A stretch of 64,000 nucleotides of DNA from Methanofollis tationis (lineage in GTDB: Archaea > Halobacteriota > Methanomicrobia > Methanomicrobiales > Methanofollaceae): contig NZ_JABXWR010000001.1 in the NCBI RefSeq assembly GCF_013377755.1, forward strand, positions 1,561,104 to 1,625,103. The letters run 5' to 3'. The position numbers were made by a program, and so were the translations under genes. The notes below the pieces were generated by a model. It did no database searches. It had not been told where the DNA came from and saw only the letters and a list, made by a program, of their open reading frames with translations. Shown in pieces: positions 43,480 through 56,213 of the stretch. Numbering within the stretch: the first letter of the stretch is position 1; every line of letters begins with the position of its first letter.

Positions 43480-44637
43480 CTAAACAGGATACCTTAACAC
43501 AGGAATGGCTCTGGCACCCCTCATCGATGTGCGGATCGCCTCCCAGATTATGCACATGAAGGAGCTGAACCGGAAGCCGCGCACCTCAATGGTTTGTGGT
43601 CCCTGTTTCACGGGGGAAAAGTGCTTCCAGAGTAGATCGATCCAGATATTCTTGAGGAGGAACGATATTATAGCGTAGAGATACCGGATGACCGGGTTTT
43701 TTGTGCTCGTACGGGGTTTCACCTGGTTGCGCATCCGATAGGACGATTCAATCGAGAATCTGGACCGATAGGTCTGATGGACCCGATGGGGATTCCACCG
43801 GAGGTTTCCCACGACGTAACCCAGATTCTCAACGCCGCGCTTACCCCGTTTTCCTTTTGCATACTTCACGGCAATCGCAATCTTCAGGACCAGCACCGGT
43901 TTTCCGTGCATCCGATATTCAGCATACCGGGAGTGGGTTCCCTGGAGGACTTGTTTCATCCTTTTCCCGTGTTTCCTGACAGGAACGATGAACGGCACCT
44001 GGACGTCCATCAGAAACCCGAGCACCTTCCGGGTGTAGAACTCCCGATCCAGGCAGAGAACTTCGATGCGAAGACCGAGTTCAGCGATCCGATCGAGACA
44101 TTGCGCGATGTATCCGACCTTCGAGGTATCCCGGCGCACCGGGAACACGGCCAGCGTCATCTGCCGGTTCCTGGTGGTCACATACAGAGTGATGTAGGAA
44201 TAAAACTCATTTGTTGACTTTTTACGCTTACTTCGCACGATATAGGCTTCGTTCTCCTCATCGGTTGACCCGTAGTACGGATCGTTGGTAAAGTCAATCG
44301 CAAACTGATAGGCGTACCCCGGTTTGAGGACGTGGTGCATATGGGTGGTGAGGATCGAGGTGTTATTCTGTTCCAAATCGGCCATATCGAGCTTTTTGAG
44401 GTGGTAGCGAACGGACGTTTCGCACGGTACCCGATCCAGGATGTGGGTGATTGAGTGAACTGACTGATTCATTACAGCCATGCCGACCAGAGAAGAAATC
44501 AAGTCCGTTTGAGTGAGTTTTCCCTGAATGGGAATGGTTAGATGCTGATCCAGTGCCGAAACAACAGGGGCGCAACAGTCTTTAGGTTTCAGAATGTTGC
44601 TCTTTCTGCAGGTCACCCTCGATTTAGGTAAAGGCAT
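43480..44637 (-). CDS. ISH3-family transposase
   Basis: A 385-residue DDE transposase of the IS4 superfamily. Catalytic residues appear in FAIDFTNDPYYG, VLCLDREFYTRK and YRSRFSIESSYRMRN. The YRxRFxIESSYR pattern is typical of archaeal ISH3-type enzymes. The frame is intact, so the element could be active. I could not identify convincing terminal repeats or a target duplication, so only the gene is delimited. Confidence 0.85.
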   Translation of the reverse strand: MPLPKSRVTCRKSNILKPKDCCAPVVSALDQHLTIPIQGKLTQTDLISSLVGMAVMNQSVHSITHILDRVPCETSVRYHLKKLDMADLEQNNTSILTTHMHHVLKPGYAYQFAIDFTNDPYYGSTDEENEAYIVRSKRKKSTNEFYSYITLYVTTRNRQMTLAVFPVRRDTSKVGYIAQCLDRIAELGLRIEVLCLDREFYTRKVLGFLMDVQVPFIVPVRKHGKRMKQVLQGTHSRYAEYRMHGKPVLVLKIAIAVKYAKGKRGKRGVENLGYVVGNLRWNPHRVHQTYRSRFSIESSYRMRNQVKPRTSTKNPVIRYLYAIISFLLKNIWIDLLWKHFSPVKQGPQTIEVRGFRFSSFMCIIWEAIRTSMRGARAIPVLRYPV

Positions 44638-44780
44638 GAGGGGAAGCCTGCAATCTATATAGATCTTTCGATTTTGGGCGGGCTTCGGGCGGTAGAGGGG
44701 GATTTGGGGTTTCTAAAATTAGTGCTGTGTTGCATAACTCTCTCCTGTACTCTTCCTCCCTCTTTTCTCCGCCGTCTCGC

Positions 44781-45677
44781 TCACTTCACCATTGTAAGCA
44801 GCATATTGTAGCAGTTCATTTTCATCTTCACCTCCCGGATCATTCCCTCCTTCGAAGTCGCCCTCACCGTTTCGCCGAATATTCGTTTTCCACTGGAAAA
44901 CACTCCTTCAGCCTTCCATCTCATCCCATAGTCGATATCCTGTGCCCACTCTCTATATCCCCCCAATCGTACTCGCTCCCGTACGCATTCGGCGCGATAG
45001 GGCGATCCGGTGGATCTGGTCGCTGCATCTGTTCGCGTCTTGATTCCCGATAGGATCCCGCGTTTTTCGAGCGTATTGAAGATCTCGTTCCGGTCATAGG
45101 CCCCATCTGCAAGAAGACGGCGTATGGTATGCTCCCTGCCACAGTGCTGCTGGACCTGATCCAGGAGGGGAATACACCGTGCATCATCCTGAACCGATTC
45201 GTCGGTGACCTCTAGACCAAGGATCTGATTGGTTTCGATGTCGATCATCGCATGGACCTTGATCCATCCGCGCCGGACCCTCCACTTCTCCCGCATCCAT
45301 TCCCCGCGGTTGGTGACTTTGATCCCGGTGCTATCGACAGCAATGATGACATTGCGTGAGAGGATCGTTGGATCAACCCGAAGGGAGATATCAAGACGCT
45401 TGATCCGGCGGAAAAGGGTTGTATAATCTGCTGAAACAAGGGAAGGAATAAAGATAGAGAGTTTCCGGGTAAAACCCTCCATCTGGCGATAGGGCATCTG
45501 CAGGAAGACGTGAATGAAAGCCATCCAGGTGATGAAGGGTTCGGGATAGTGAAAAGGACGACCGGGCTTGCCGGTGTTCATCCGGGAAACGAGATCAGTC
45601 CAGTGGTCGATGAAATCAAGGGAGAGGTAGAATTCGCCGCGGCGAACCAGACGTTCATTATATCCCAAACACCGCAT
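44781..45677 (-). CDS. IS5-type transposase
   Basis: A 298-residue DDE transposase. IIAVDSTGIKVTNRGEW supplies the first Asp, RRLLADGAYDRNEIF the second, and RWKAEGVFSSGKRIFGE the Glu region. The N-terminal helix-turn-helix region contains YPEPFITWMAFIHVF. The frame is intact. Inverted termini are not evident by eye. It is transcribed away from the IS1634-type gene to its right. Confidence 0.85.
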   Translation of the reverse strand: MRCLGYNERLVRRGEFYLSLDFIDHWTDLVSRMNTGKPGRPFHYPEPFITWMAFIHVFLQMPYRQMEGFTRKLSIFIPSLVSADYTTLFRRIKRLDISLRVDPTILSRNVIIAVDSTGIKVTNRGEWMREKWRVRRGWIKVHAMIDIETNQILGLEVTDESVQDDARCIPLLDQVQQHCGREHTIRRLLADGAYDRNEIFNTLEKRGILSGIKTRTDAATRSTGSPYRAECVRERVRLGGYREWAQDIDYGMRWKAEGVFSSGKRIFGETVRATSKEGMIREVKMKMNCYNMLLTMVK

Positions 45678-45751
45678 GATTTAGGGCACATACTCTCCCC
45701 TATCCGCTTCTTTTCCAGAACGCCCCCAGCAGGATGGAAAGATCTATATAT

Positions 45752-47187
45752 TATATTCCCTAATATTGTATCATATGGACGAGTGGGCTCGCGGGTGGCT
45801 GGAAGACCAACGCCGGAAGGGCGAGAAGTGCCTTGAGATCAAGTACATCCAGGACAAACCCTACGTCTACCGTTCGACAAGCGTCTACGACAAAGCGAGC
45901 AAATCCCCCCGGAAGGTGAGCACGTACCTCGGCCGGCTCACGAAAGATCATGGCCTGGTACCCAAAGGTGCGCGAACGCCAACCATCCAGCCCTGCACCA
46001 TCCACGAATATGGCAACGCTGCCCTGCTGGAAGAAGAGTCCAGTGACCTTCTCCCCATCCTGAAAGACGCCTTCCCGGGCCACTGGCAGGAGATCGTCGC
46101 CCTCACCTTCACCCGGATCTCCGGGTACACGCCGCTCTCCCGGGTCAATGATGCCTGGGAGAAACTCAATAACGGCCTTGAGATCGCGCCGTCCTGCGAT
46201 CCCCGCGCTCTCTCGCGTACGCTCACCGCGATCGGCGGCGATCGTCATGCCCAGCAGCAGGTGTTCCAGTACCTCTCCTCACAATCGAACCGGCTCATCT
46301 ACGACCTCTCGTTCATCTTCTCTTCCTCCGACACCGTAAACCTGGCAGAGTTCGGCTACAACGCTGAAGGGGTCTGGCTGCCCCAGGTGAACATTGCACT
46401 CTTCAGCGCCATGGATACCGGCCTTCCGGTGATGATCCGCGCCCTGCCGGGTTCGGTCAGGGATGTCTCGACTCTCGTTGGATCCCTCGCCGAGATCGCA
46501 GCACCAGGAGGCATTCTTGTCCTCGATCGTGGATTCGTCTCGGAGAAGAACGAAACAGCCCTGATCGAGGCGAAGATCCCGTTCGTCCTCCCGCAACGCC
46601 GCAATAGCACCAGGTACGAGATCAGGATCCATCTCACCGACCACTTCTTCTACCACAAACGGCTGATCCATGCCGGTAAAAGGGAGATCGACGGACTGAC
46701 ACTCTATCTCTACGAGGATGCCGACCTGAAGGTCGAAGAGGAGAAGACCCTCTACCGCCTGCTGGAGGAGGGAGAGATCGATCGGGAAGCGCTGAACGTG
46801 AGGCTGAAGCGTGCGGGCCGGATCCTGATCCTCTCCTCGGTGAAGGCGGAGCCCCAGGAGATCTACCAGATGTATAAGTCGAGAAACCTGGTCGAGGACC
46901 ATTTTGCTGCGTTCAAGAGTTTGATCCAGGCAGACAAGCTCTACCTCCGGGACGCAACGGCGGTGTTCGGCCATGTCTTTGTCGGGTTTCTCTGTCTCTA
47001 TCTCTACTGCCGGATCCTGAACCGGATCAAGAGGGCGGGGATGACAGCGCACCTGTCACCGCAGGGGCTGCTGCTGAAACTCTCAAAGGTGTACGCGGTG
47101 GGAGCGGGGGAGGAGAGACGGATCACCGAGGTGCCGAAGGGGGTGCGGAAGATCGCGGAGAAACTGGAACTCGATATATTCCCTAAT
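45752..47187. repeat. 13-bp direct repeats flanking the IS1634-type gene
   Basis: TATATTCCCTAAT occurs at 45752-45764 and again at 47175-47187 in the same orientation. The right copy lies inside the last codons of the transposase. Direct repeats around an IS1634-type gene could be a target duplication, since the family is known for unusually long ones, but no inverted termini were found to confirm the ends. Confidence 0.4.
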
Positions 47188-47193
47188 GCTTGA
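45775..47193 (+). CDS. IS1634-type transposase
   Basis: A 472-residue IS4-superfamily transposase of the IS1634/IS1549 type. The first catalytic Asp lies in the central domain. GGILVLDRGFVSEKNETAL gives the second Asp, and YKSRNLVEDHFAAFKS carries the Glu in the Y-x2-R-x3-E-x6 pattern. The N-terminal segment YIQDKPYVYRSTSVYDKASK is usual. ATG at 45775 is chosen over TTG at 45766. The frame is intact; it ends 112 nt before the DUF2193 gene. Confidence 0.85.
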   Translation: MDEWARGWLEDQRRKGEKCLEIKYIQDKPYVYRSTSVYDKASKSPRKVSTYLGRLTKDHGLVPKGARTPTIQPCTIHEYGNAALLEEESSDLLPILKDAFPGHWQEIVALTFTRISGYTPLSRVNDAWEKLNNGLEIAPSCDPRALSRTLTAIGGDRHAQQQVFQYLSSQSNRLIYDLSFIFSSSDTVNLAEFGYNAEGVWLPQVNIALFSAMDTGLPVMIRALPGSVRDVSTLVGSLAEIAAPGGILVLDRGFVSEKNETALIEAKIPFVLPQRRNSTRYEIRIHLTDHFFYHKRLIHAGKREIDGLTLYLYEDADLKVEEEKTLYRLLEEGEIDREALNVRLKRAGRILILSSVKAEPQEIYQMYKSRNLVEDHFAAFKSLIQADKLYLRDATAVFGHVFVGFLCLYLYCRILNRIKRAGMTAHLSPQGLLLKLSKVYAVGAGEERRITEVPKGVRKIAEKLELDIFPNA

Positions 47194-47304
47194 GGAGTTT
47201 GGGTTTGAAATACTTTTAAATAGGATGACCCCTCATTCCTCCTCTGTGGGCCCTCTTCTGATCTGAAAAGAGCGGAAGAGAAACCACGGAGAGGTGAATG
47301 AGAG

Positions 47305-48804
47305 ATGTCAGAACTGTATAGGAAGATGGTCGACGAGGCGATGGCTGCCCAGCGGGCAGATGTCGGCATGGTGAAGAAGAAGCGGGGGGAGGCTTTCGTC
47401 ATTGAGGATGCCAGGGCGTATCTCGATGCGGTAAGCCAGATGAAACCTGTCGAAGACCAGTCGAAAGCAGTCTTCTCGCTTCACACCGACTCGGTAAAAG
47501 CGCACTTTGAGGTCCTCAAAGGATTGACAGAGACCGTCAGGCCTGAGGACGATCCCTTCGTCGAGCATTACCAGACCCCTGTGGTCCTAGAGATCCTCTA
47601 TGGCGAGGATCCTGCGTTCAGGAAGAGCGTCGACGCCTTCATCGAGGGGATCGGAAAGGCAGAGGCACTGATTGGACGGGAATCTGCCCGCCGGTATGCC
47701 GGATTCTACGGACCGACCTGTGTGGTGGACTTTGCCCTGATCCCTGGCAGCACCAGCAATGTGGTCAACCAGATCTTACAGACCGTCGATATCCCGGTCA
47801 CCCATAAACAGGCGATCCTTGCTTCAAAGTCGTGGGGGATGAACACCAGTTACGGTATCGGCGAGGTGTTTGCCCAGGAGACCGAGAAAGGCGCTACCCT
47901 CGCCGATGCGGTGAAGGCGGAGATCCAGATGCTCAAGGCGGTCTATGACGAACCGGTCGAGACCCAGGCAAAACTGATGGACGCTGCCGGCATGACCTCG
48001 TTCGACTGCCGGAAGTACATGGCCGGATACCGGACGAAGATGGAGGGCGCGGTCATGGCGGCGATCGATGATGGCGTCCATTACGCCAACATCGTCACGG
48101 TTCCGGCCTACTGCGTCGGCGACATCGCCCATCACATCGCCCAGTCCACGTACAACATGTGCAAGGACGATGTCATCATGGCGACCATCGAGGCCGCAAC
48201 CGACGTGATGGACCTCAACCTGAGAAACGCCGTCCCGAAATGCAAGAGCGAGTATGATCTCCTCTCGCTCGCCACCGGGGCGTCGGCCTGCGCTGCCGAG
48301 TACATCCTCGAACTTGACGGATTCAATGCGATCATGCTCGTCGATCTCCTCACCAAGCGGTGGCACAACTATGTGCAGCTCTACCCGAAACGCGGCGCCG
48401 CTGCTGAACTGCACAACTGCGACTTCATGGACATGATCTACCGCGGCTGGAAGTATGTGGACAAGGCCCGCAGGGCGCAGAACGGACAGAGCGGGATGCT
48501 CAGGCCGAAGGTCAGCGGTTTCGAGGTGGATCTCTCGCCGATCCACAATAATGACGTCCTGATGAACCCGCAACGCTACGCGTACCCGGCGTGTGCGATC
48601 ACCGTGCGCGCCTCTTCGTTGCTCCGTCTTGCAGACTATCCGTGTCTCCTCACGAGCGAACCGGTCACGGCGACGCTCATGACGAACATCATCGCCCTGC
48701 ACAAGGAGGTCGCCGCTGCGCCGGCCAGGATCTGCAAGGACTGCGCCTCCGCGGCCCTGATGGACTTCAGGCACTGCTACTGCCAGTGGAAGGAAGCGGT
48801 CTGA
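47305..48804 (+). CDS. DUF2193 protein
   Basis: A 499-residue soluble protein matching DUF2193, a family confined largely to methanogens and without known function. It is mostly helical, with LIPGSTSNVVNQILQTVDIP and a C-terminal metal-like motif at Cys477, Cys480, Cys491 and Cys493 (CKDC then CYC). A TATA-like TTTTAAATA at 47214-47222 and GGAGAGGTGA 7 nt before the ATG mark a good promoter and start. It heads a three-gene operon with DUF2180 and an aquaporin. Confidence 0.82.
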   Translation: MSELYRKMVDEAMAAQRADVGMVKKKRGEAFVIEDARAYLDAVSQMKPVEDQSKAVFSLHTDSVKAHFEVLKGLTETVRPEDDPFVEHYQTPVVLEILYGEDPAFRKSVDAFIEGIGKAEALIGRESARRYAGFYGPTCVVDFALIPGSTSNVVNQILQTVDIPVTHKQAILASKSWGMNTSYGIGEVFAQETEKGATLADAVKAEIQMLKAVYDEPVETQAKLMDAAGMTSFDCRKYMAGYRTKMEGAVMAAIDDGVHYANIVTVPAYCVGDIAHHIAQSTYNMCKDDVIMATIEAATDVMDLNLRNAVPKCKSEYDLLSLATGASACAAEYILELDGFNAIMLVDLLTKRWHNYVQLYPKRGAAAELHNCDFMDMIYRGWKYVDKARRAQNGQSGMLRPKVSGFEVDLSPIHNNDVLMNPQRYAYPACAITVRASSLLRLADYPCLLTSEPVTATLMTNIIALHKEVAAAPARICKDCASAALMDFRHCYCQWKEAV

Positions 48805-48823
48805 ACTGGCAGAGGTGATCTGG

Positions 48824-49033
48824 ATGAAGTGCTATGTCTGTGCAAAGGAAGGGCGCTCATCTGATGCAGTTGCGGTCTGCATCGTATGCGGGATGGGCCT
48901 CTGCGAACACCATGCGATGCGCGAGGAGCTGGATATGTGGGAAGGGGGTTACCCCTTCCCGGCCCGGCGGGTGAAGGCGAAGATCCCCAGGATCCTCTGT
49001 CCTGAGTGCTATCATGCTCTCAAGGGAGGATGA
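48824..49033 (+). CDS. DUF2180 zinc-ribbon protein
   Basis: A 69-residue cysteine-rich protein: MKCYVCAKEG, VCIVCGMGLCEHHA and ILCPECYHAL give three Cys pairs plus His, enough for two zinc sites. It matches DUF2180, an archaeal family of unknown role. The start at 48824 is set by GAGGTGAT 4 nt upstream. It lies 19 nt after DUF2193 and runs to within 6 nt of the aquaporin start, so the three are co-expressed. Confidence 0.85.
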   Translation: MKCYVCAKEGRSSDAVAVCIVCGMGLCEHHAMREELDMWEGGYPFPARRVKAKIPRILCPECYHALKGG

Positions 49034-49038
49034 TCCAG

Positions 49039-49794
49039 ATGGCCAACCTGCTGAAGCGCTGTATAGCCGAACTTGCCGGGACCGCGCTTCTCGTGTACTT
49101 CGGTGCTGGAGCCGCGGCTATCACCCTGATGATCGCGCGGGGGACCGATACCGGAACGCCGTTCAATATCGGCATCGGCGCACTGGGGGGACTGGGGGAC
49201 TGGTTTGCCATCGGTATGGCCTTCACCATCGTGATCGCCGCGGTGATCTACTCGATGGGGAGGGTCTCGGGCGCGCACATCAACCCTGCCGTGACCCTCG
49301 CCCTCTGGGCCACAAAACGTTTCCCGGCCGGTGATACCGGGGCATACATCGTTGCCCAGCTGATCGGCGCTGCTGTGGGGAGTTTTCTCTTTGCCGCCAG
49401 TGCCGGCCTGGATGCGGTCACGATCGGCGGGCTCGGCGCCACCGCCCCGTTCCCCGGGATCAGCTACGGTCAGGCGATCCTGGCTGAGGCGATCGGCACC
49501 TTTGTGCTGGTGCTCGTCATCATGGGGATTGCTGTGGACAAAAAGGCCCCGCCGGGGTTTGCCGGGCTGATCATCGGATTGACGGTGGGCGGGGTGATCA
49601 CCACCATCGGGAATATTACGGGCTCGTCGCTCAACCCGGCACGCACCTTCGGCCCGTACCTCGCAGATGCTCTCCTGGGTGGGCCTGACCTCTGGGTATA
49701 TTTTCCGATCTATATCATCGGCCCGATCGTCGGTGCGGTCATTGCGGCGTTCTTCTATGATTATCTCGCAGGCCGGGAGGACTCTTCTGAATAA
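49039..49794 (+). CDS. Aquaporin / glycerol-facilitator family channel (AqpM-like)
   Basis: A 251-residue MIP-family channel with six membrane helices and both half-helix motifs, GAHINPAVTLALW and GSSLNPARTFGPYL. It probably passes water or small neutral solutes; methanogen AqpM also passes glycerol slowly and has been proposed to pass H2S or CO2. ATG at 49039 lies 9 nt after GGGAGG; ATG at 49030 directly abuts that site. It is the last gene of the DUF2193 operon. Confidence 0.92.
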   Translation: MANLLKRCIAELAGTALLVYFGAGAAAITLMIARGTDTGTPFNIGIGALGGLGDWFAIGMAFTIVIAAVIYSMGRVSGAHINPAVTLALWATKRFPAGDTGAYIVAQLIGAAVGSFLFAASAGLDAVTIGGLGATAPFPGISYGQAILAEAIGTFVLVLVIMGIAVDKKAPPGFAGLIIGLTVGGVITTIGNITGSSLNPARTFGPYLADALLGGPDLWVYFPIYIIGPIVGAVIAAFFYDYLAGREDSSE

Positions 49795-49908
49795 ACAGGG
49801 TGAGATTCTGGCCTCTGAATCATATCTTTTTTCATCTGAATGCGGTTCGCAGAAAAGATCCGGCCACCCCAAAACCATAATTTCAAATATTTTTGAATCA
49901 CTGTACGT

Positions 49909-50679
49909 ATGATGACAACCATCGAAGAGATCAGGTCCGCCGGGATCGCGATGAAGGATATCCTGGGCCTCCGCGGCTCCCCGGTCGGGGTCAGGCTGCT
50001 GAAAACCGACGCTCCCGTGCCGGGTGCGGTCAGGGCAGAGGGCAACCGCTACTGCCAGGCACTGATGCGGGCGCGGCACGGCGAGCACGTCGTCGTCACC
50101 GGCGAGACGATCGCCTGTCCGGCGGCGGCACGCGCCTTCGGGTTCAAACCTCTCCCCGAACCGCTCAGGACCGGCAAAGGGTTGGTCGGGTTCGGGATCA
50201 CCGCCGAAGAGGCGGTCGGGGCGAAGATGTTCGAGGGCATGACGGTCCTTGAGATGGGATCGGTCGGGCAGATCGATCTCTTCCCGCTCGACCTGGCCGA
50301 AGAGATCCCTGATCTCGTGGTGGTCGAGGACGAGACTGAGAAACTGATGTGGATCGCCCTCTCGTACATGCACGCCCACGGCGGCGAGCGCGTCCGCGGT
50401 TCGACGGCGGTGCTCCAGGCGACCTGTGTGGATTCGACGATCATCCCGTATGTCGAGCGGCGCCTCAACTACGGGCTTGGCTGCTACGGCTGCCGGGACG
50501 CCACCGATATGGCGGCGGGAGAGGCGGTTCTCGGCTTCCCGGCCGAAGAGCTGCCGGCGATCGTTGCGCACCTCAAACACCTTGGAGGCCGGGCGCTCCC
50601 CCACTCCCGCGGCAAACACGCCTATGCGGCGCTTGCAAAAGAGCGGAAGAGCGCGCCGGGCTCCTGCTCTGAACTCTAA
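49909..50679 (+). CDS. DUF169 protein
   Basis: A 256-residue DUF169 protein. Typical segments are LRGSPVGVRLLKTDAPVPG, YCQALMRARHGEHVVVT, ACPAAARAFGF and NYGLGCYGCRDATDM. The conserved cysteines suggest metal or cofactor binding, but no activity is known. No ribosome-binding site precedes the ATGATG at 49909/49912. TTTCAAATATTTTT (49881-49894) places the start site almost at the ATG, so the message is probably leaderless. An arsenate-reductase-like gene follows 17 nt downstream. Confidence 0.85.
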   Translation: MMTTIEEIRSAGIAMKDILGLRGSPVGVRLLKTDAPVPGAVRAEGNRYCQALMRARHGEHVVVTGETIACPAAARAFGFKPLPEPLRTGKGLVGFGITAEEAVGAKMFEGMTVLEMGSVGQIDLFPLDLAEEIPDLVVVEDETEKLMWIALSYMHAHGGERVRGSTAVLQATCVDSTIIPYVERRLNYGLGCYGCRDATDMAAGEAVLGFPAEELPAIVAHLKHLGGRALPHSRGKHAYAALAKERKSAPGSCSEL

Positions 50680-50696: not shown

Positions 50697-51104
50697 ATGA
50701 AACGACGCGTGCTCTTTGTCTGCACCCACAACGCCGCCCGGTCGCAGATGGCCGAGGGCTACATGAACGCCCGCTACGGCGACCGCTATGAGGCGTACTC
50801 CGCCGGGACCGAGACCGGGGGGCTGAACCCCTACGCGGTCCGCGCGATGGCGGAGATCGGGATCGACATCTCAGGGCAGCACTCGAAGCATATCTCCACC
50901 TTTGCAGGAGAGGAGATGGACGTGCTGGTCGCTGTCTGCGAGGGCGGCACCTGCCCGCTCTTTCCCTGGGCGAAGGAAACGGTCCACCGGAGTTTCCCCG
51001 ACCCCTCACGTCTTACCGGCACCGACGGGGAGATCATGGACGGCGTGCGCCGGATCCGGGACGAGATCGTCGCCTGGATCGACGAAACCTTTGGAGTGGC
51101 GTAG
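50697..51104 (+). CDS. arsC: Arsenate reductase, LMW-phosphatase type
   Basis: A 135-residue protein with the phosphatase P-loop VLFVCTHNAARSQMAEGYMN, paired redox cysteines further on (VAVCEGGTCPLFPWA) and FPDPSRLTGTDGE with the general-acid Asp. This is the thioredoxin-linked ArsC family, which reduces arsenate to arsenite before export. The context (DGC, ArsF-like and ArsG-like genes) supports metalloid handling. Confidence 0.92.
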   Translation: MKRRVLFVCTHNAARSQMAEGYMNARYGDRYEAYSAGTETGGLNPYAVRAMAEIGIDISGQHSKHISTFAGEEMDVLVAVCEGGTCPLFPWAKETVHRSFPDPSRLTGTDGEIMDGVRRIRDEIVAWIDETFGVA

Positions 51105-51455
51105 ATGGCGTTCACCATCGTCGCCTGCTCGGGGATCTCGAGCACCGGAAAACTGACCGCGCAGGCCGGGGCGGTGCTCGTGCACCGCTGCGGCGGCGAG
51201 ATCGAGGCCTGCGTCCGTGCGCGGGCGGCGGCGCTGGAGGGCGCTGTCAGGCACGCCGACCGCATCCTGGTGCTGGACGGGTGCGAGGACTGCTGCGGGA
51301 TGAAGAAGGTGCGGGCGCTTTCGGTCGAGCCCGACCTGCACGTCGTCGCCACCGCCTGCGGGATCAAAAAGCGGGGGATGGACGATCCGCAGTACGCCGA
51401 GATCGAGTGCCTTGCCGCCGCCGTGCGGGCGGCGATGGGGGGGTGCAGGAAATGA
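51105..51455 (+). CDS. DGC-domain putative zinc-binding protein
   Basis: A 116-residue protein of the DGC family (PF08859): VACSGISSTGKLTAQAG at the N-terminus, the name-giving VLDGCEDCCGMKKV, and a third conserved cysteine in TACGIKK. The cysteines may bind zinc or a thiophilic metalloid. It starts directly after the arsC stop and its own stop overlaps the next small frame, so it belongs to the arsenic-type cluster. Confidence 0.85.
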   Translation: MAFTIVACSGISSTGKLTAQAGAVLVHRCGGEIEACVRARAAALEGAVRHADRILVLDGCEDCCGMKKVRALSVEPDLHVVATACGIKKRGMDDPQYAEIECLAAAVRAAMGGCRK

Positions 51456-51538
51456 ACCACGCGAAAGACCATCTGTTTCTCGAAGAACAGGGCGCCGCCG
51501 TGCCAGTGCGCTCGCCCATACTCAGGGAGAAGGGATGA
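51452..51538 (+). CDS. 28-residue coupled small frame
   Basis: A short frame beginning MNHAKDHLFLEEQGAAVPVR. Its ATG overlaps the stop of the DGC gene (ATGA at 51452-51455), and its TGA overlaps the next ATG (51535-51538). It may be a real small peptide, or only a translational bridge that keeps ribosomes moving from the DGC gene to the lipoprotein gene. No family is recognised. Confidence 0.4.
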   Translation: MNHAKDHLFLEEQGAAVPVRSPILREKG

Positions 51539-52026
51539 TGAAACCACGAACCCTTATGAAGAATTATCGGATTACAGCCGTCCCCCTGCTCCTTGTCATC
51601 GTATCGCTGGCGGTGCTCACCGCTGGATGTCTGGGAGAGGAAGAGGGGGCGGCGAATGGTCAGTCGACCGAGATCGCCTATACCGGATCGAATGTCGAGC
51701 ACGTCGAACTCTTCCATTTCTACGGCTCAAACAGGTGTACGTCCTGCATCATCCTCGGCGACCTCGCCGAGATGACGGTGAACACCTATTATGCAGAGGA
51801 ACTCGAATCAGGGCGGCTTGTCTTCAGCCACATCGATGTTGGAGTGCCGGAGAACCGTGAAATCGTCGAGCGATACGGTCCGACGGGCTCGTCGCTCTGG
51901 ATCGGGATCTATGACGAGAATGGTTTCCATGCCGAAGAACTGATCGCACCCTGGTACCTGATCGGGTCGCAGACCCGGTTCATGGGCTATCTGAAGGCCG
52001 TCATCGACCAGCAACTCGGGCAATAA
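51535..52026 (+). CDS. ArsF-like thioredoxin-fold lipoprotein
   Basis: A 163-residue protein. A hydrophobic leader ends in the lipobox VLTAGC, so it should be lipid-anchored outside the membrane. The mature part is thioredoxin-like with FYGSNRCTSCIILGDLA (CxxC). This matches proteins annotated as nitrophenyl compound nitroreductase subunit ArsF family. The partner permease follows 8 nt later. Likely job: thiol redox or metalloid handing to the permease. ATG 51538 is an alternative start; GGGAG lies 5 nt before 51535. Confidence 0.78.
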   Translation: MMKPRTLMKNYRITAVPLLLVIVSLAVLTAGCLGEEEGAANGQSTEIAYTGSNVEHVELFHFYGSNRCTSCIILGDLAEMTVNTYYAEELESGRLVFSHIDVGVPENREIVERYGPTGSSLWIGIYDENGFHAEELIAPWYLIGSQTRFMGYLKAVIDQQLGQ

Positions 52027-52034
52027 GGATCGTC

Positions 52035-52748
52035 ATGGACGTTATGGGATTTATGCAGGCGATGGGGATGAGCGGCATCCCCATCATCGCCGCCTTTTTT
52101 ATCGGGCTGATGATGGCGATGAGCCCGTGCCCGCTCGCAACCAACATCACCGCCATTGCCTATGTCTCCCGCCGGATCGATACCGGTCGCCGCACCCTTC
52201 TGGTCGGGGTGCTCTACGGTGCCGGGAGAACGGTCGCGTACGTGGCCATCGCAGCGGCGATCGTCTATGCGGGCCTGAATGTGCAGGCCGTCTCCTTCTT
52301 TCTCCAGGACTACGGGGAGATGCTCATCGGGCCGCTGCTCCTCCTCCTTGGCGTCCTGATGCTCGATCTCGTCGAGATCAACCTTCCAGGAGGCGGGAGG
52401 TGGCTCACCTCCCTTATGGAGTGGTTTTCCGAGAAAGGAGTTGCAGGGAGTTTTGTTCTCGGCGTTCTGTTCGCACTCAGTTTCTGCCCGTTCAGCGCCG
52501 TGCTCTTCTTCGGCATGCTCATTCCCCTCGCCCTGAACACCGGCGACGCCATCCTCGTGCCGGCGGTCTTTGGCGTTGCAACGGCCCTGCCGGTCATTCT
52601 GGTCTCTCTGCTGCTCGTCCGCGGGGTGGGGCAGGCGGCGCGGCTGATGCAGCGGGCGCAGGAGGTTGATCTCTGGGTGAAGAGATGCGTCGCCGTGGTG
52701 TTCATCGCGATCGGCCTCTACTCCCTCGGAAACGTGTGGTTGTGGTGA
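52035..52748 (+). CDS. ArsG-like DsbD/CcdA-type permease
   Basis: A 237-residue membrane protein with six helices. Paired cysteines lie in MAMSPCPLATNITAIAYVSR and LSFCPFSAVLFFGM, at the positions of the DsbD/CcdA transmembrane redox centre. It matches the family annotated as aromatic aminobenzylarsenical efflux permease ArsG. It may export trivalent arsenicals or move reducing power across the membrane to the ArsF-like lipoprotein; both are inference. Confidence 0.82.
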   Translation: MDVMGFMQAMGMSGIPIIAAFFIGLMMAMSPCPLATNITAIAYVSRRIDTGRRTLLVGVLYGAGRTVAYVAIAAAIVYAGLNVQAVSFFLQDYGEMLIGPLLLLLGVLMLDLVEINLPGGGRWLTSLMEWFSEKGVAGSFVLGVLFALSFCPFSAVLFFGMLIPLALNTGDAILVPAVFGVATALPVILVSLLLVRGVGQAARLMQRAQEVDLWVKRCVAVVFIAIGLYSLGNVWLW

Positions 52749-52853
52749 GGCTGCGGGGTGCCGTGTGGGCACCTTCGTAGAGATGAAAAGAGTTCAAGAT
52801 TTTCTGAACAATCTTTATCTCATCTCCCGCCATCACTCCCTCTGGTGATACCC

Positions 52854-53855
52854 ATGGACGGATATGCCGGAAAGATAGTTTATGCAGATCTCGGCAGGGG
52901 CACAGTCGAGATACGCCCGACCCCTGACGACCTGAAGCGCCAGTACCTCGGCGGAAGGGGGTTTGGCGCCCGCATCGTCGCGGATCGGGTGGATCCCACC
53001 ACCGATCCGCTCTCACCCGCGAACGTCTTTGTCCTCGCCTCGGGTCCGCTCACCGGGACGGGCATCCCCCTCGGGAGCCGCTACGAGGTGAGCGCGAAGT
53101 CGCCCCTGAACGGCACCCTCGCCTCCGCGAACAGCGGCGGGACCTTCGGCTGGAAGATCAAGAAGGCCGGGTTCGACGCGGCGGTTATTTCTGGACGGTC
53201 AGAAAAGCCGGTCTATCTCTTCCTCAATGAAGGGTCGGCCGAACTCCGCGACGCCTCGCCCTACTGGGGCAGGGACGTCTATGAGACGACCGAAGCCCTC
53301 ATCGCCGATATCGGCGACCCGAAGGCGAAGGTGGCGTGCATCGGCCCGGCCGGCGAGAAGCAGAGCCTTATTGCCTGTATCATGAACGACGACGACCGGG
53401 CGGCCGGACGGAACGGGTTCGGGGCGGTGATGGGGAGCAAGAACCTCAAGGCGATCGTTGCTACCGGCAACCTCCCGATCGGGGTGGCCGATCAGGAGCG
53501 CCTCAACGCCGTGAAAGAGCGGATCCGCGAGAAGATCCAGAAGAACGGGATCTGCGAGGCATTGACGAAGTACGGCACCTCGGTGCTCGTCAACATCGTC
53601 AACGAGAACGGGATCCTCCCGACGCGCAACTTCCAGAGCGGCCATTTTGCAGGTGCCGAGAACATTTCGGGCGAGAAAATCGCGGAGACGATCCTGAAGA
53701 AGAACACCGGGTGCTATGCCTGCATCGTCCGGTGCAGCCGCGTCTGCGAGGTCGACGGCGAGGTGCACGAGGGGCCGGAGTACGAGCCGGTCTGGGCGTT
53801 CGGCGCCGATATCGGCAACGAAGATATCAAACTGGTGACGAAGGCGGCATGGGAG
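52854..53855 (+). pseudogene. aor: Aldehyde ferredoxin oxidoreductase, 5' part, split by an IS
   Basis: The first 334 codons of a tungsten/molybdenum pterin aldehyde:ferredoxin oxidoreductase. The N-terminus GKIVYADLGRGTVEI and ASGPLTGTGIPLGSRYEVSA are typical. CYACIVRC gives Cys287, Cys290 and Cys294, matching the first three 4Fe-4S ligands of the family. The frame is cut after Ala-Ala-Trp-Glu by the element at 53856 and stops at 53879. GGTGAT precedes the ATG by 4 nt. Removing the element and one 6-bp repeat restores an intact 591-residue gene. Confidence 0.93.
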
Positions 53856-55112
53856 GGTAGTGTTTCAGATCTTCTGTAATTCGTCTGAGCCCTGTCTCCT
53901 TGTTTGATCATTCCCCCTCCATCGTCAAATATCTTCTGCCGGTCACCCACTCCTCATTGATGTCCATCAGGATGGATCCTGCCAGCCTGAGGAGTGACTC
54001 TTCATTGGGAAAGGCCCCTACAACTTTGGTTCTCCGTTTCAGTTCCTTGTTGACTCTTTCCATCATGTTCGTCGTTCGGATCCGCTTTGCGTGCTCTTTC
54101 GGGAACGCCGTGTAACTCATAAGTCCCGGGATGAATCTCTCGATCGTATTGGCCGCTTTCCGATATCCTCGTTCGTTCAGATCGTCTGCAAGCTCCTGCA
54201 GTCTCTCCTCGTCCCCATATGCCTCCTTCAAGGACTCAGCAACTTCTTTCTGATGTTTCCGTGGAATATTCTTTAAAACCGCCCGGGTGCAATGGACCGA
54301 GCACATCTGCCACGATGCGCCGAGGAAGGTGGCTTCCGCCGCCTTCTGGATCCCGGCATGACCATCTGAGACAACCATCTTGACACCCACCAATCCTCGT
54401 TCTTTGAGGTCTTCGAACAATCCCGACCAGAACATCTCATTCTCGCAATCAGTGATTCTGGCTCCCAGGATTTCGCGGTAGCCATCCATTCGAACACCGG
54501 CGATCACCAGAAGAGCTTTGGTGATGTAGCGTGGTCCCTCTCTGACTTTGTAGTACGAAGCATCCACAAAGAGATAGGGAATCTCCTGTTCAATCGGCCT
54601 CTGAAGGAATGCATGGACCTGTTCATCGAGGTCCTTTGCTATCCTGGATACTGAAGCAGGAGAGAGTTGTTCGATGCCAAAATGAGCAACAATCTCCTGG
54701 ATCCGGCGGGTTGAGACTCCCTGAAGGTAGGATTCAAAGATAGCATTCTCAAGAGCCTTCTCAACCCGGGAATAGCGTCCAAATACCTGTGTTTCGAAGG
54801 GAAATTCTCGGAACTGCGGTTTCTGGAGGATCGTTTCTCCATATCGGGTTTTCAGAGATCGCTTCTTGTAGCCGTTTCGGTGAGCCTTCCGCGCATCGGT
54901 TCGTTCATACTGCTCGGCTCCCGCCTGGTGGAGGGCTTCGAGCAGCATCACCTGGTTGAGGAACCAGGTGATGAGGGTCTTCATGCCATTCTCATTATCG
55001 GAAAGATAATCTTCGATTAACGCTAAGGGATCCATGGCCCTGTTTCTCCTTTCTGCAAATCTAGGTTGGATTCAGGGCCAAATTATTTTTACAGAAGATT
55101 CGTTACACTATC
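53856..55112 (-). mobile_element. IS256-type insertion sequence, copy 2 (1257 bp)
   Basis: Same length and nearly the same sequence as copy 1 but in the opposite orientation. The ends are GGTAGTGTTTCAGATCTTCT on the left and, read from the right end, GATAGTGTAACGAATCTTCT. It is flanked by the direct repeat TGGGAG (53850-53855 and 55113-55118), a target duplication shorter than the 8-9 bp usual for IS256. Its transposase is intact, so this copy may be active. It splits the aldehyde ferredoxin oxidoreductase gene. Confidence 0.92.
53908..55035 (-). CDS. IS256-family transposase, intact
   Basis: A 375-residue transposase with DDE residues in LFVDASYYKVREG, MVVSDGHAGIQKA and NMMERVNKELKRR, and the mutator-type segment CSVHCTRAVLKNIPRK before the Glu. 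It differs from copy 1 at several residues and has Glu where copy 1 has a stop. It fills 90 percent of the element. Confidence 0.95.
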   Translation of the reverse strand: MDPLALIEDYLSDNENGMKTLITWFLNQVMLLEALHQAGAEQYERTDARKAHRNGYKKRSLKTRYGETILQKPQFREFPFETQVFGRYSRVEKALENAIFESYLQGVSTRRIQEIVAHFGIEQLSPASVSRIAKDLDEQVHAFLQRPIEQEIPYLFVDASYYKVREGPRYITKALLVIAGVRMDGYREILGARITDCENEMFWSGLFEDLKERGLVGVKMVVSDGHAGIQKAAEATFLGASWQMCSVHCTRAVLKNIPRKHQKEVAESLKEAYGDEERLQELADDLNERGYRKAANTIERFIPGLMSYTAFPKEHAKRIRTTNMMERVNKELKRRTKVVGAFPNEESLLRLAGSILMDINEEWVTGRRYLTMEGE

Positions 55113-55118
55113 TGGGAG

Positions 55119-55892
55119 TGCAACCGCCTCGGGCTCGATGCGATCGGGACGCCGGGGGCGATCGCCTGCGCGATGGAGATGCGCGAGAAGGGTTTCATCG
55201 ACGAGGGGCCGCAGTTTGGCGAGGTGGATGGTCTCCTCGATCTTGTCCGGCAGATCGGCTACCGCGAAGGATTCGGCGCCGAACTCGCCGACGGGTCCTA
55301 CCGTTTTGCTGAACGGCACGGCCACCCCGAACTCTCGATGAGCGTCAAGAAGCAGGACCTGCCGGCCTATGACCCGCGGGGGCTGCAGGGACACGGCCTG
55401 TCATACGCCACCTCGGTCAGGGGGGGCGACCATGTCTATGGCTATATGATCGCGCCCGAAGTGCTCGGCTCTCCCGAGAAGCTCGACCCCTATGTCAGCG
55501 AGGGGAAGGCCGGATGGGTGAAGATTTTCCAGGACCTCACGGCGGCGATCGACGCCTCCGGGATGTGCCTCTTCACCTCGTTCGCACTCGATGCAAAGGA
55601 TTATGCCGACCTGGTGGCGGCGACGACCGGGATGGCGATGGACGCCGACGCCCTGCTCAGGACAGGCGAGCGGATCTGGAACCTCCAGAAACTCTTCAAC
55701 ATCGGGGCGGGCTATACGAGGGCGGACGATACGCTCCCGGAGCGTCTGCTCACCGAGCCCCTGCAGGACCTCTCTCCGAAAGGCCGGGTCTGGGAGCCCG
55801 GTCGCCTGCTCGATGAGTACTATGCGCTGCGCGGCTGGGACGCGGAGGGCGTGCCGACGCCGGAGAAGGTAAAGGAACTCGGGCTCACGTGA
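55119..55892 (+). pseudogene. aor: Aldehyde ferredoxin oxidoreductase, 3' part
   Basis: The last 257 codons of the split gene, starting CNRLGLDAIGTPGAIACAME. It holds KKQDLPAYDPRGLQGHGLSY for cofactor binding and the fourth 4Fe-4S cysteine in DASGMCLFTSF (residue 484 of the rebuilt protein). The frame joins the 5' part exactly at the duplicated TGGGAG. Without the rest it cannot bind the whole pterin cofactor, so the enzyme is presumably lost unless the element excises. Confidence 0.93.
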
Positions 55893-55934: not shown

Positions 55935-56213
55935 ATGCAGGTGACGGTAAAGGCGTTTGCAACCTTTCGGCGATGGATGGAGCCGCAGGCAACGGTCGTG
56001 ATCGAGGAAGGCGCCACCGTCGCCGACCTGCTGACGGTGCTCACCGGACGGCATCCCGGGTTTGCCGGGGATATCTTCTCGGCGCCGGGCGTGCTGAAGG
56101 AGTATGTCAATATCCTGCTCAACGGGAGAAATGTCTATTTCCTGCAGGGCCTCTCAACCCCGCTCCACGAGGGCGATCTCGTCGCTCTCTTCCCGCCGGC
56201 GGGCGGGGGGTGA
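55935..56213 (+). CDS. MoaD/ThiS-family sulfur carrier
   Basis: A 92-residue ubiquitin-like protein ending in the required diglycine (LVALFPPAGGG). The core VTVKAFATFRRWM and VNILLNGRNVYFLQGLST is MoaD-like. It should carry thiocarboxylate sulfur for molybdopterin or tungstopterin synthesis, which fits its place 43 nt after the tungsto-enzyme gene. If transcription of the split gene stops at the element, this gene may be less expressed. Confidence 0.88.
   Translation: MQVTVKAFATFRRWMEPQATVVIEEGATVADLLTVLTGRHPGFAGDIFSAPGVLKEYVNILLNGRNVYFLQGLSTPLHEGDLVALFPPAGGG

Follow-up and report, generated by a model that had tools for sequence, protein, structure and literature searches.

Genes and signals at the locus

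The window, i.e., the whole stretch of 64,000 nucleotides from Methanofollis tationis that was analysed, harbors three consecutive genes on the forward strand, coding for a DUF2193 protein, a DUF2180 protein and an aquaporin (termed the trio below). The trio lies behind an insertion sequence (IS), and the following features were assigned:

45664-47203, + strand: IS element of 1540 bp with a DDE transposase ORF (45766-47193), inserted in the trio promoter region
47204-47222, + strand: remnant of the trio promoter; TTTGAA (right half of a palindrome and target-site duplication of the IS element), followed by the TATA-like TTTTAAATA
47305-48804, + strand: DUF2193 (PF09959), 499 aa; Pfam 907.9 bits, gathering score 25
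48824-49033, + strand: DUF2180 (PF09947), 69 aa; Pfam 125.2 bits, gathering score 22.2
49039-49794, + strand: AqpM-type aquaporin (MIP, PF00230); Pfam 154 bits

Each gene is preceded by a strong Shine-Dalgarno sequence (about 47288-47297, 48812-48819 and 49024-49033), and the single TATA-like box of the trio is located at 47214-47222. An earlier note on this DNA had described three genes within 2.5 kb with strong ribosome-binding sites and one TATA-like element, which is borne out by Pfam and the sequence. It had missed that the aquaporin is the structurally solved AqpM, that paralogues of DUF2193 pair with MtrH and that the locus is linked to arsenic.

Conservation of the operon

The adjacency of the three genes in other genomes, which the earlier note had proposed as a check, is kept in order in 73 of the 78 evaluable named loci, which are drawn from the closest 80 of 296 and therefore biased toward near relatives; one further locus has AqpM only, one DUF2180 only and three have neither. 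All of the 30 best Halobacteriota loci carry the three genes in the same order. Among 17 Methanobacteriota loci the trio is present in 10, and in 7 DUF2193 is accompanied by AqpM only. Of the phylum-wide loci L032-L069, chosen for diversity, 34 were evaluable, and 33 of these have AqpM directly 3' of DUF2193. The pair DUF2193-AqpM lacking DUF2180 is found in Methanosarcinaceae and many Methanobacteriota; in family f8 (Methanosarcinaceae-type) and family f14, AqpM directly follows DUF2193 at a distance of 42-140 bp. An evenly drawn sample of 295 Halobacteriota genomes had DUF2193 in 86, DUF2180 in 112 and a MIP protein in 107, and 81 of 150 Methanobacteriota genomes contain DUF2193. The adjacency of the trio is far above chance.

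Clustering of the neighboring ORFs revealed the trio families as the sole widely shared ones. The next cluster, an HTH_10-type gene, reaches 7 loci, mostly from Archaeoglobi; as a dedicated regulator gene of the trio it was rejected, since outside the Archaeoglobi it is found nearby at just one Methanosarcinaceae locus. The neighborhood of the trio ranks among the best preserved in this analysis and, judged from gene order, the trio is a real and widely conserved operon of archaea that use tetrahydromethanopterin (H4MPT), with the order held across several orders. The earlier note had called both families methanogen-centred; the carriers are, more widely, H4MPT-using archaea including Archaeoglobi.

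At two loci the unit is incomplete in another way: one contains DUF2180 and AqpM but no DUF2193 (L070, 8005-8945) and one just a DUF2193 fragment beside DUF2180 and AqpM (L071, 7455-8594), which suggests a recent loss of DUF2193.

That the three genes are mere neighbors, carried together and having no joint function, would be in line with the horizontal movement of the operon as a block, as seen in the DUF2193 tree and the placement of AqpM described below. Nevertheless, the order is held across Methanobacteriota, Archaeoglobi, Methanotrichaceae and Methanomicrobiales, with every other neighbor changing, and this explanation is hardly credible.

The supposition that the module might be undescribed stands: the literature search yielded no description of DUF2193-DUF2180-AqpM and no mention of DUF2180, and the literature on structure and transport of AqpM does not mention the DUF2193-DUF2180 operon where searched. 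The operon is thus apparently undescribed so far.

The three proteins

The AlphaFold2 model of DUF2193 (40-sequence alignment, pLDDT 88.5, pTM 0.90) is predicted to be all-helical. A Foldseek search of the PDB with this model gave no match below E 0.07, the best-ranked one having a probability of 0.16, and a sequence-profile search of the PDB returned nothing. A TIM-barrel methyltransferase was rejected because the predicted fold differs and the PDB searches gave nothing, and a membrane protein, hinted at by weak Foldseek matches to transporters, was rejected with a maximal 19-residue hydropathy of 1.27 vs. 2.48 in AqpM.

An alignment of 132 homologues revealed that C477, C480 and C493 are invariant and C491 varies freely, whereas position 490 is mostly histidine, or cysteine in Methanosarcinaceae and all paralogues, with three exceptions to H/C. 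The C-terminal C-x2-C...C-x-C cluster of the earlier note was therefore a misreading, the fourth ligand being position 490 and not the variable C491, and the putative metal site is C477-C480-H490-C493. This agrees with the published motif CX2CX6DX2(H/C)X2C (PMC9431491). Furthermore, H67, E87, E126, E206, H276-H277, H370, D373 and D376 are invariant in both clades of DUF2193, and D273 with one exception. Many of the invariant residues are acidic, histidine or tyrosine, a set that would be as expected for an enzyme. DUF2193 revealed no recognizable site for a corrinoid, a pterin or SAM.

In DUF2180 the putative ligands C3, C6, C19, C22, C27, H30, C59 and C62 are invariant or nearly so among 119 sequences, a pattern that would fit a two-zinc protein. 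The predicted model (pLDDT 91.5) did not lead to a fold assignment in the PDB, as the matches to zinc fingers and ribosomal proteins were weak, e.g., the Rim2 zinc finger (probability 0.87, E 0.76). Two tandem DUF2180 genes are present at four Methanosarcinaceae loci (L166, L169, L171 and L172) beside a Mer-like gene, a CMD protein, a multihaem cytochrome and flavoproteins, and at L166 and L172 the cluster also contains a rubrerythrin. This mer-DUF2180-DUF2180-CMD-cytochrome c cluster places the DUF2180 family next to a Mer-like C1 gene; in contrast to the window, its DUF2180 proteins (37-43% identity to that of the window) are not beside DUF2193 or AqpM.

For DUF2193 the literature search found a sole mention, namely that the protein is more abundant in M. 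voltae on FeS2 (PMC9431491). Together with the company of the Methanosarcinaceae DUF2180 pairs (CMD-family protein, multihaem cytochrome, flavoproteins, rubrerythrin at two loci) this would fit a module against redox or iron-sulfur stress, in which DUF2193 would be an Fe/Fe-S or peroxide-handling protein and AqpM a channel for water or H2O2. In the loci examined, however, genes of this kind do not recur next to the trio, and the context of the paralogues is methyl transfer, so that this role is distinctly unlikely.

The aquaporin of the window matches PDB 3NE2 from Archaeoglobus fulgidus (E 8e-109) and PDB 2EVU from Methanothermobacter marburgensis (E 4e-103) over the full length, with 366 and 348 bits, and by sequence it is an AqpM orthologue. 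The NPA motifs are located at 82 and 199, and the ar/R filter, with positions taken from PMC6912568, consists of F62, I187, S196 and R202; both motifs and the F-I-S-R filter are shared with the AqpM of M. marburgensis (PDB 2F2B/2EVU) and A. fulgidus (3NE2). Among the trio AqpMs the filter is nearly constant and narrow, F-[IV]-[SAGT]-R, and a filter alignment of the trio AqpMs taken together displayed no distinctive pore in the arsenic-linked ones. According to published work, AqpM lets water pass, is far less permeable to glycerol than GlpF and does not carry H2S (PMC3287591). On these grounds a methylated solute is hypothetical, and H2S, one of the solutes which the earlier note had considered, is unlikely. 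The more general idea of that note, a solute channel coupled to a soluble protein with a metal site, is still plausible.

In Methanocalculus at 25 MPa the AqpM transcript is about fourfold up (Table 1 of PMC12727201), a condition where CO2 was argued to be limiting. A module for CO2 or water, taken up or released through AqpM, with DUF2193 acting on the CO2, would fit this observation, and most carriers make or use CO2. On the other hand, the same table has AqpM but not DUF2193 or DUF2180, maybe omitted as hypothetical, and the MtrH pairing of the paralogues is left unexplained. We regard a role in water or CO2 exchange as improbable.

Paralogues of DUF2193 and MtrH

A second clade of DUF2193, with 36-41% identity to the protein of the window, is found in the Archaeoglobaceae-type family f9 and two further families. 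All 12 evaluable genomes pair this paralogue with MtrH (PF02007): in 10 the MtrH gene directly precedes it, and in the other 2 both belong to one cluster; the contig of a 13th genome is too short to judge. Two of these paralogue clusters (L066 and L158) also hold an LLM-family (Mer-like) protein and an aldehyde:ferredoxin oxidoreductase, and L158 adds URO-D methyltransferase-type proteins.

MtrH homologues outside the Mtr complex have been proposed to be methylcorrinoid:H4MPT methyltransferases acting with a corrinoid partner (PMC8630106). For the DUF2193-linked MtrH genes, no PF02310 B12-binding gene was found within 80 kb on the same contig, although some contigs are short and the absence is weaker there. 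In contrast, 8 of 11 other full-length MtrH homologues of the same genomes have a PF02310 gene within 5 kb. The DUF2193 paralogues thus resemble MtrH-dependent corrinoid systems such as MtoABC (PMC8630106) in that both proteins are encoded in one operon, but differ in that no corrinoid protein gene is nearby and DUF2193 is predicted to be all-helical and not a TIM barrel; moreover, the trio itself has no MtrH. In addition, FTR, a marker of the H4MPT pathway, is present in 86 of 86 DUF2193-positive Halobacteriota genomes compared to 238 of 295 overall.

The MtrH pairing, the lack of a nearby B12-binding gene and the distribution of FTR together place DUF2193, as a best guess inferred from the paralogues, in methyl or C1 transfer. 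Since no MtrH neighbor was seen for the trio's own DUF2193 clade, this role is extrapolated from paralogues that are 36-41% identical. The Mer-like gene adjoining the Methanosarcinaceae DUF2180 relatives counts in its favor, and the predicted fold, which differs from the TIM barrel of known substrate methyltransferases, counts against it.

The arsenic locus

Downstream of the trio, a second operon is present:

49882-49897, + strand: palindrome TTCAAATATTTTTGAA, a candidate operator for the arsenic operon; no other exact copy occurs in the window, and the genome has 5 sites in all
49909-50679, + strand: DUF169 (PF02596), which opens the arsenic operon and is outside the conserved trio
50697-51104, + strand: LMW-phosphatase-type arsenate reductase-like protein (ArsC); TIGR02691 117.9 bits, below the cut-off of 174.3
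51105-51455, + strand: DGC-domain putative zinc-binding protein (PF08859)
51532-52026, + strand: ArsF-like protein (NF040494, above cut-off)
52035-52748, + strand: ArsG-like efflux permease (NF040495, 276 bits, above cut-off)

The ArsC-like gene lies 0.9 kb downstream of AqpM on the same strand, and with its own palindrome the arsenic operon probably has its own promoter. DUF169-ArsC-DGC-ArsF-ArsG was rejected as a part of the conserved trio, as the other sampled genomes have their strong ArsG matches far away from DUF2193 and a congener (G136) has the arsenic operon without an adjoining trio. In G136 this operon, at 90-96% protein identity and with homology starting at window position 49881, shares one locus with ArsR, ArsP permeases, DGC and ACR3, while the trio is kept elsewhere.

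Farther downstream in the window, an aldehyde:ferredoxin oxidoreductase gene (52758-55892) is split by a Mutator/IS256-type transposase (ORF 53908-55035); that of G136 is intact (623 aa), its sequence being continuous across the gap of the window. It is adjoined by a ThiS-family gene (55935-56210). At 25 MPa, Methanocalculus upregulates a SAMP3 gene and a tungsten AOR, whose locus numbers are adjacent, as well as AqpM (PMC12727201).

In the DUF2193 tree the congeners of the window genome group with Methanofollis, whereas the DUF2193 of the window falls inside a Methanoregulaceae clade (11 rows, SH-aLRT 98), with identities of up to 88% to this clade vs. about 72% to the congeners. Likewise, the AqpM of the window sits among Methanolinea and Methanoregula sequences. 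In this clade, 9 of 10 distinct members (counting the window) carry at least one gene for ACR3, ArsM, ArsR, an ArsP-type permease, ArsC, ArsF or ArsG close to the trio, and these genes occur in at least four arrangements; for the tenth, L077, just 1.4 kb of downstream sequence is available. One Methanothrix trio locus also has arsenic-related genes nearby.

The upstream side of the trio has been rearranged. The genome contains two copies of the 1540-bp IS element, identical and in opposite orientation, the second at G000:C1:1388126-1389676. The ends were set by comparing the copies, since a seed search revealed no terminal inverted repeats at the lengths used. The 6-bp target duplications are crossed, the window copy being flanked by TTATAT on the left and TTTGAA on the right, the other copy by TTTGAA on the left and TTATAT on the right. 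A probable inversion of about 217 kb between the two copies (G000:C1:1388126-1608317; window end 47203) is the simplest reading. If it is undone on paper, the trio directly follows the ArsR-ArsP-ArsP-DGC-ACR3-USP-SBF block of L214 and was therefore formerly placed between two halves of an arsenic locus. The trio was originally inside this locus, which comprises ArsR, two ArsP permeases, ACR3, ArsC, ArsF and ArsG and was later split by the inversion. Three different DDE transposase ORFs lie in a row upstream of the trio (43480-47193), and before the inversion the 1540-bp IS had apparently inserted into another IS.

Methanolinea-type trio promoters contain a palindrome, TTCAA-N6/7-TTGAA, 105-110 bp ahead of DUF2193. 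Of 131 DUF2193 upstream regions 6 have it, all within the Methanoregulaceae clade (two of the six are from one genome), and composition shuffles yield it in at most 0.2% per region. The ArsP-type permease genes of the same loci are preceded by further copies. If the flanks of the IS element are joined as an empty site, the trio leader of the window can be aligned to the Methanolinea promoter, a single mismatch falling in the left half; the right half was duplicated by the IS insertion. It is proposed that an ArsR-type repressor may bind this palindrome.

These observations would also fit a metalloid module, in which AqpM moves As(OH)3 or methylarsenite like AqpS, and DUF2193 and DUF2180 handle arsenic species at least in this lineage. 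AqpS-type aquaglyceroporins of bacterial ars operons are a precedent for an aquaporin in such operons, and methanogens methylate metalloids via methylcobalamin (PMC6205960). The likeness consists of an aquaporin gene near an arsenate reductase-like and other arsenic genes, and the former contiguity with ArsR-ArsP-ArsP-DGC-ACR3 and the palindrome, shared by the Methanolinea trio and permease operons and the arsenic operon of the window, point in the same direction. In contrast to AqpS, the window channel has the narrow F-I-S-R filter usual for AqpM and not the wide filter of aquaglyceroporins. Neither does it replace ArsB/ACR3 as the arsenite exit, since ACR3 is present at the formerly contiguous L214 and AqpM would not be needed for arsenic efflux. 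Furthermore, most trios (Methanoculleus, Archaeoglobus, Methanosarcinaceae and most Methanothrix) have no arsenic genes nearby, and the arsenic locus of G136, from the same genus, has no trio inside. A metalloid function of the trio is rather unlikely.

Proposed function

As the best, though tentative, reading, DUF2193 may be a methyl- or C1-transfer protein at the methyl-H4MPT level, with DUF2180 as its partner and AqpM as a solute channel. Mechanistically, DUF2193 would act in the cytosol, in the slot where a corrinoid protein normally partners MtrH. DUF2180 would be a small two-zinc assembly or docking partner, and AqpM would let a small neutral substance that DUF2193 consumes or forms equilibrate between the two sides of the membrane. 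The operon of this genome and of the Methanoregulaceae has become part of an arsenic locus, probably controlled through the same ArsR-type palindrome, and the solute there may thus be a neutral arsenic hydroxide.

A bolder version appears to be a long shot. Here, DUF2193 would be a new all-helical methyl carrier or methyltransferase that replaces the corrinoid protein as MtrH partner and, with DUF2180 and AqpM, shuttles methyl groups from H4MPT to a small neutral solute or back. In the Methanoregulaceae and this Methanofollis-like genome, this solute would be arsenic hydroxide and the operon would be controlled by an ArsR-type repressor.

Concluding remarks

For AqpM a high-resolution crystal structure exists, and its physiological role is not agreed. 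The trio ties this channel to two uncharacterised proteins in a near-obligate unit across methanogens and Archaeoglobi, and methyl-H4MPT metabolism and arsenic provide two testable settings for its role. If it is true that DUF2193 transfers methyl groups, it would represent a new fold for such chemistry. The arsenic-linked form of the trio would link the C1 metabolism of methanogens with metalloid cycling in anoxic soils and sediments.
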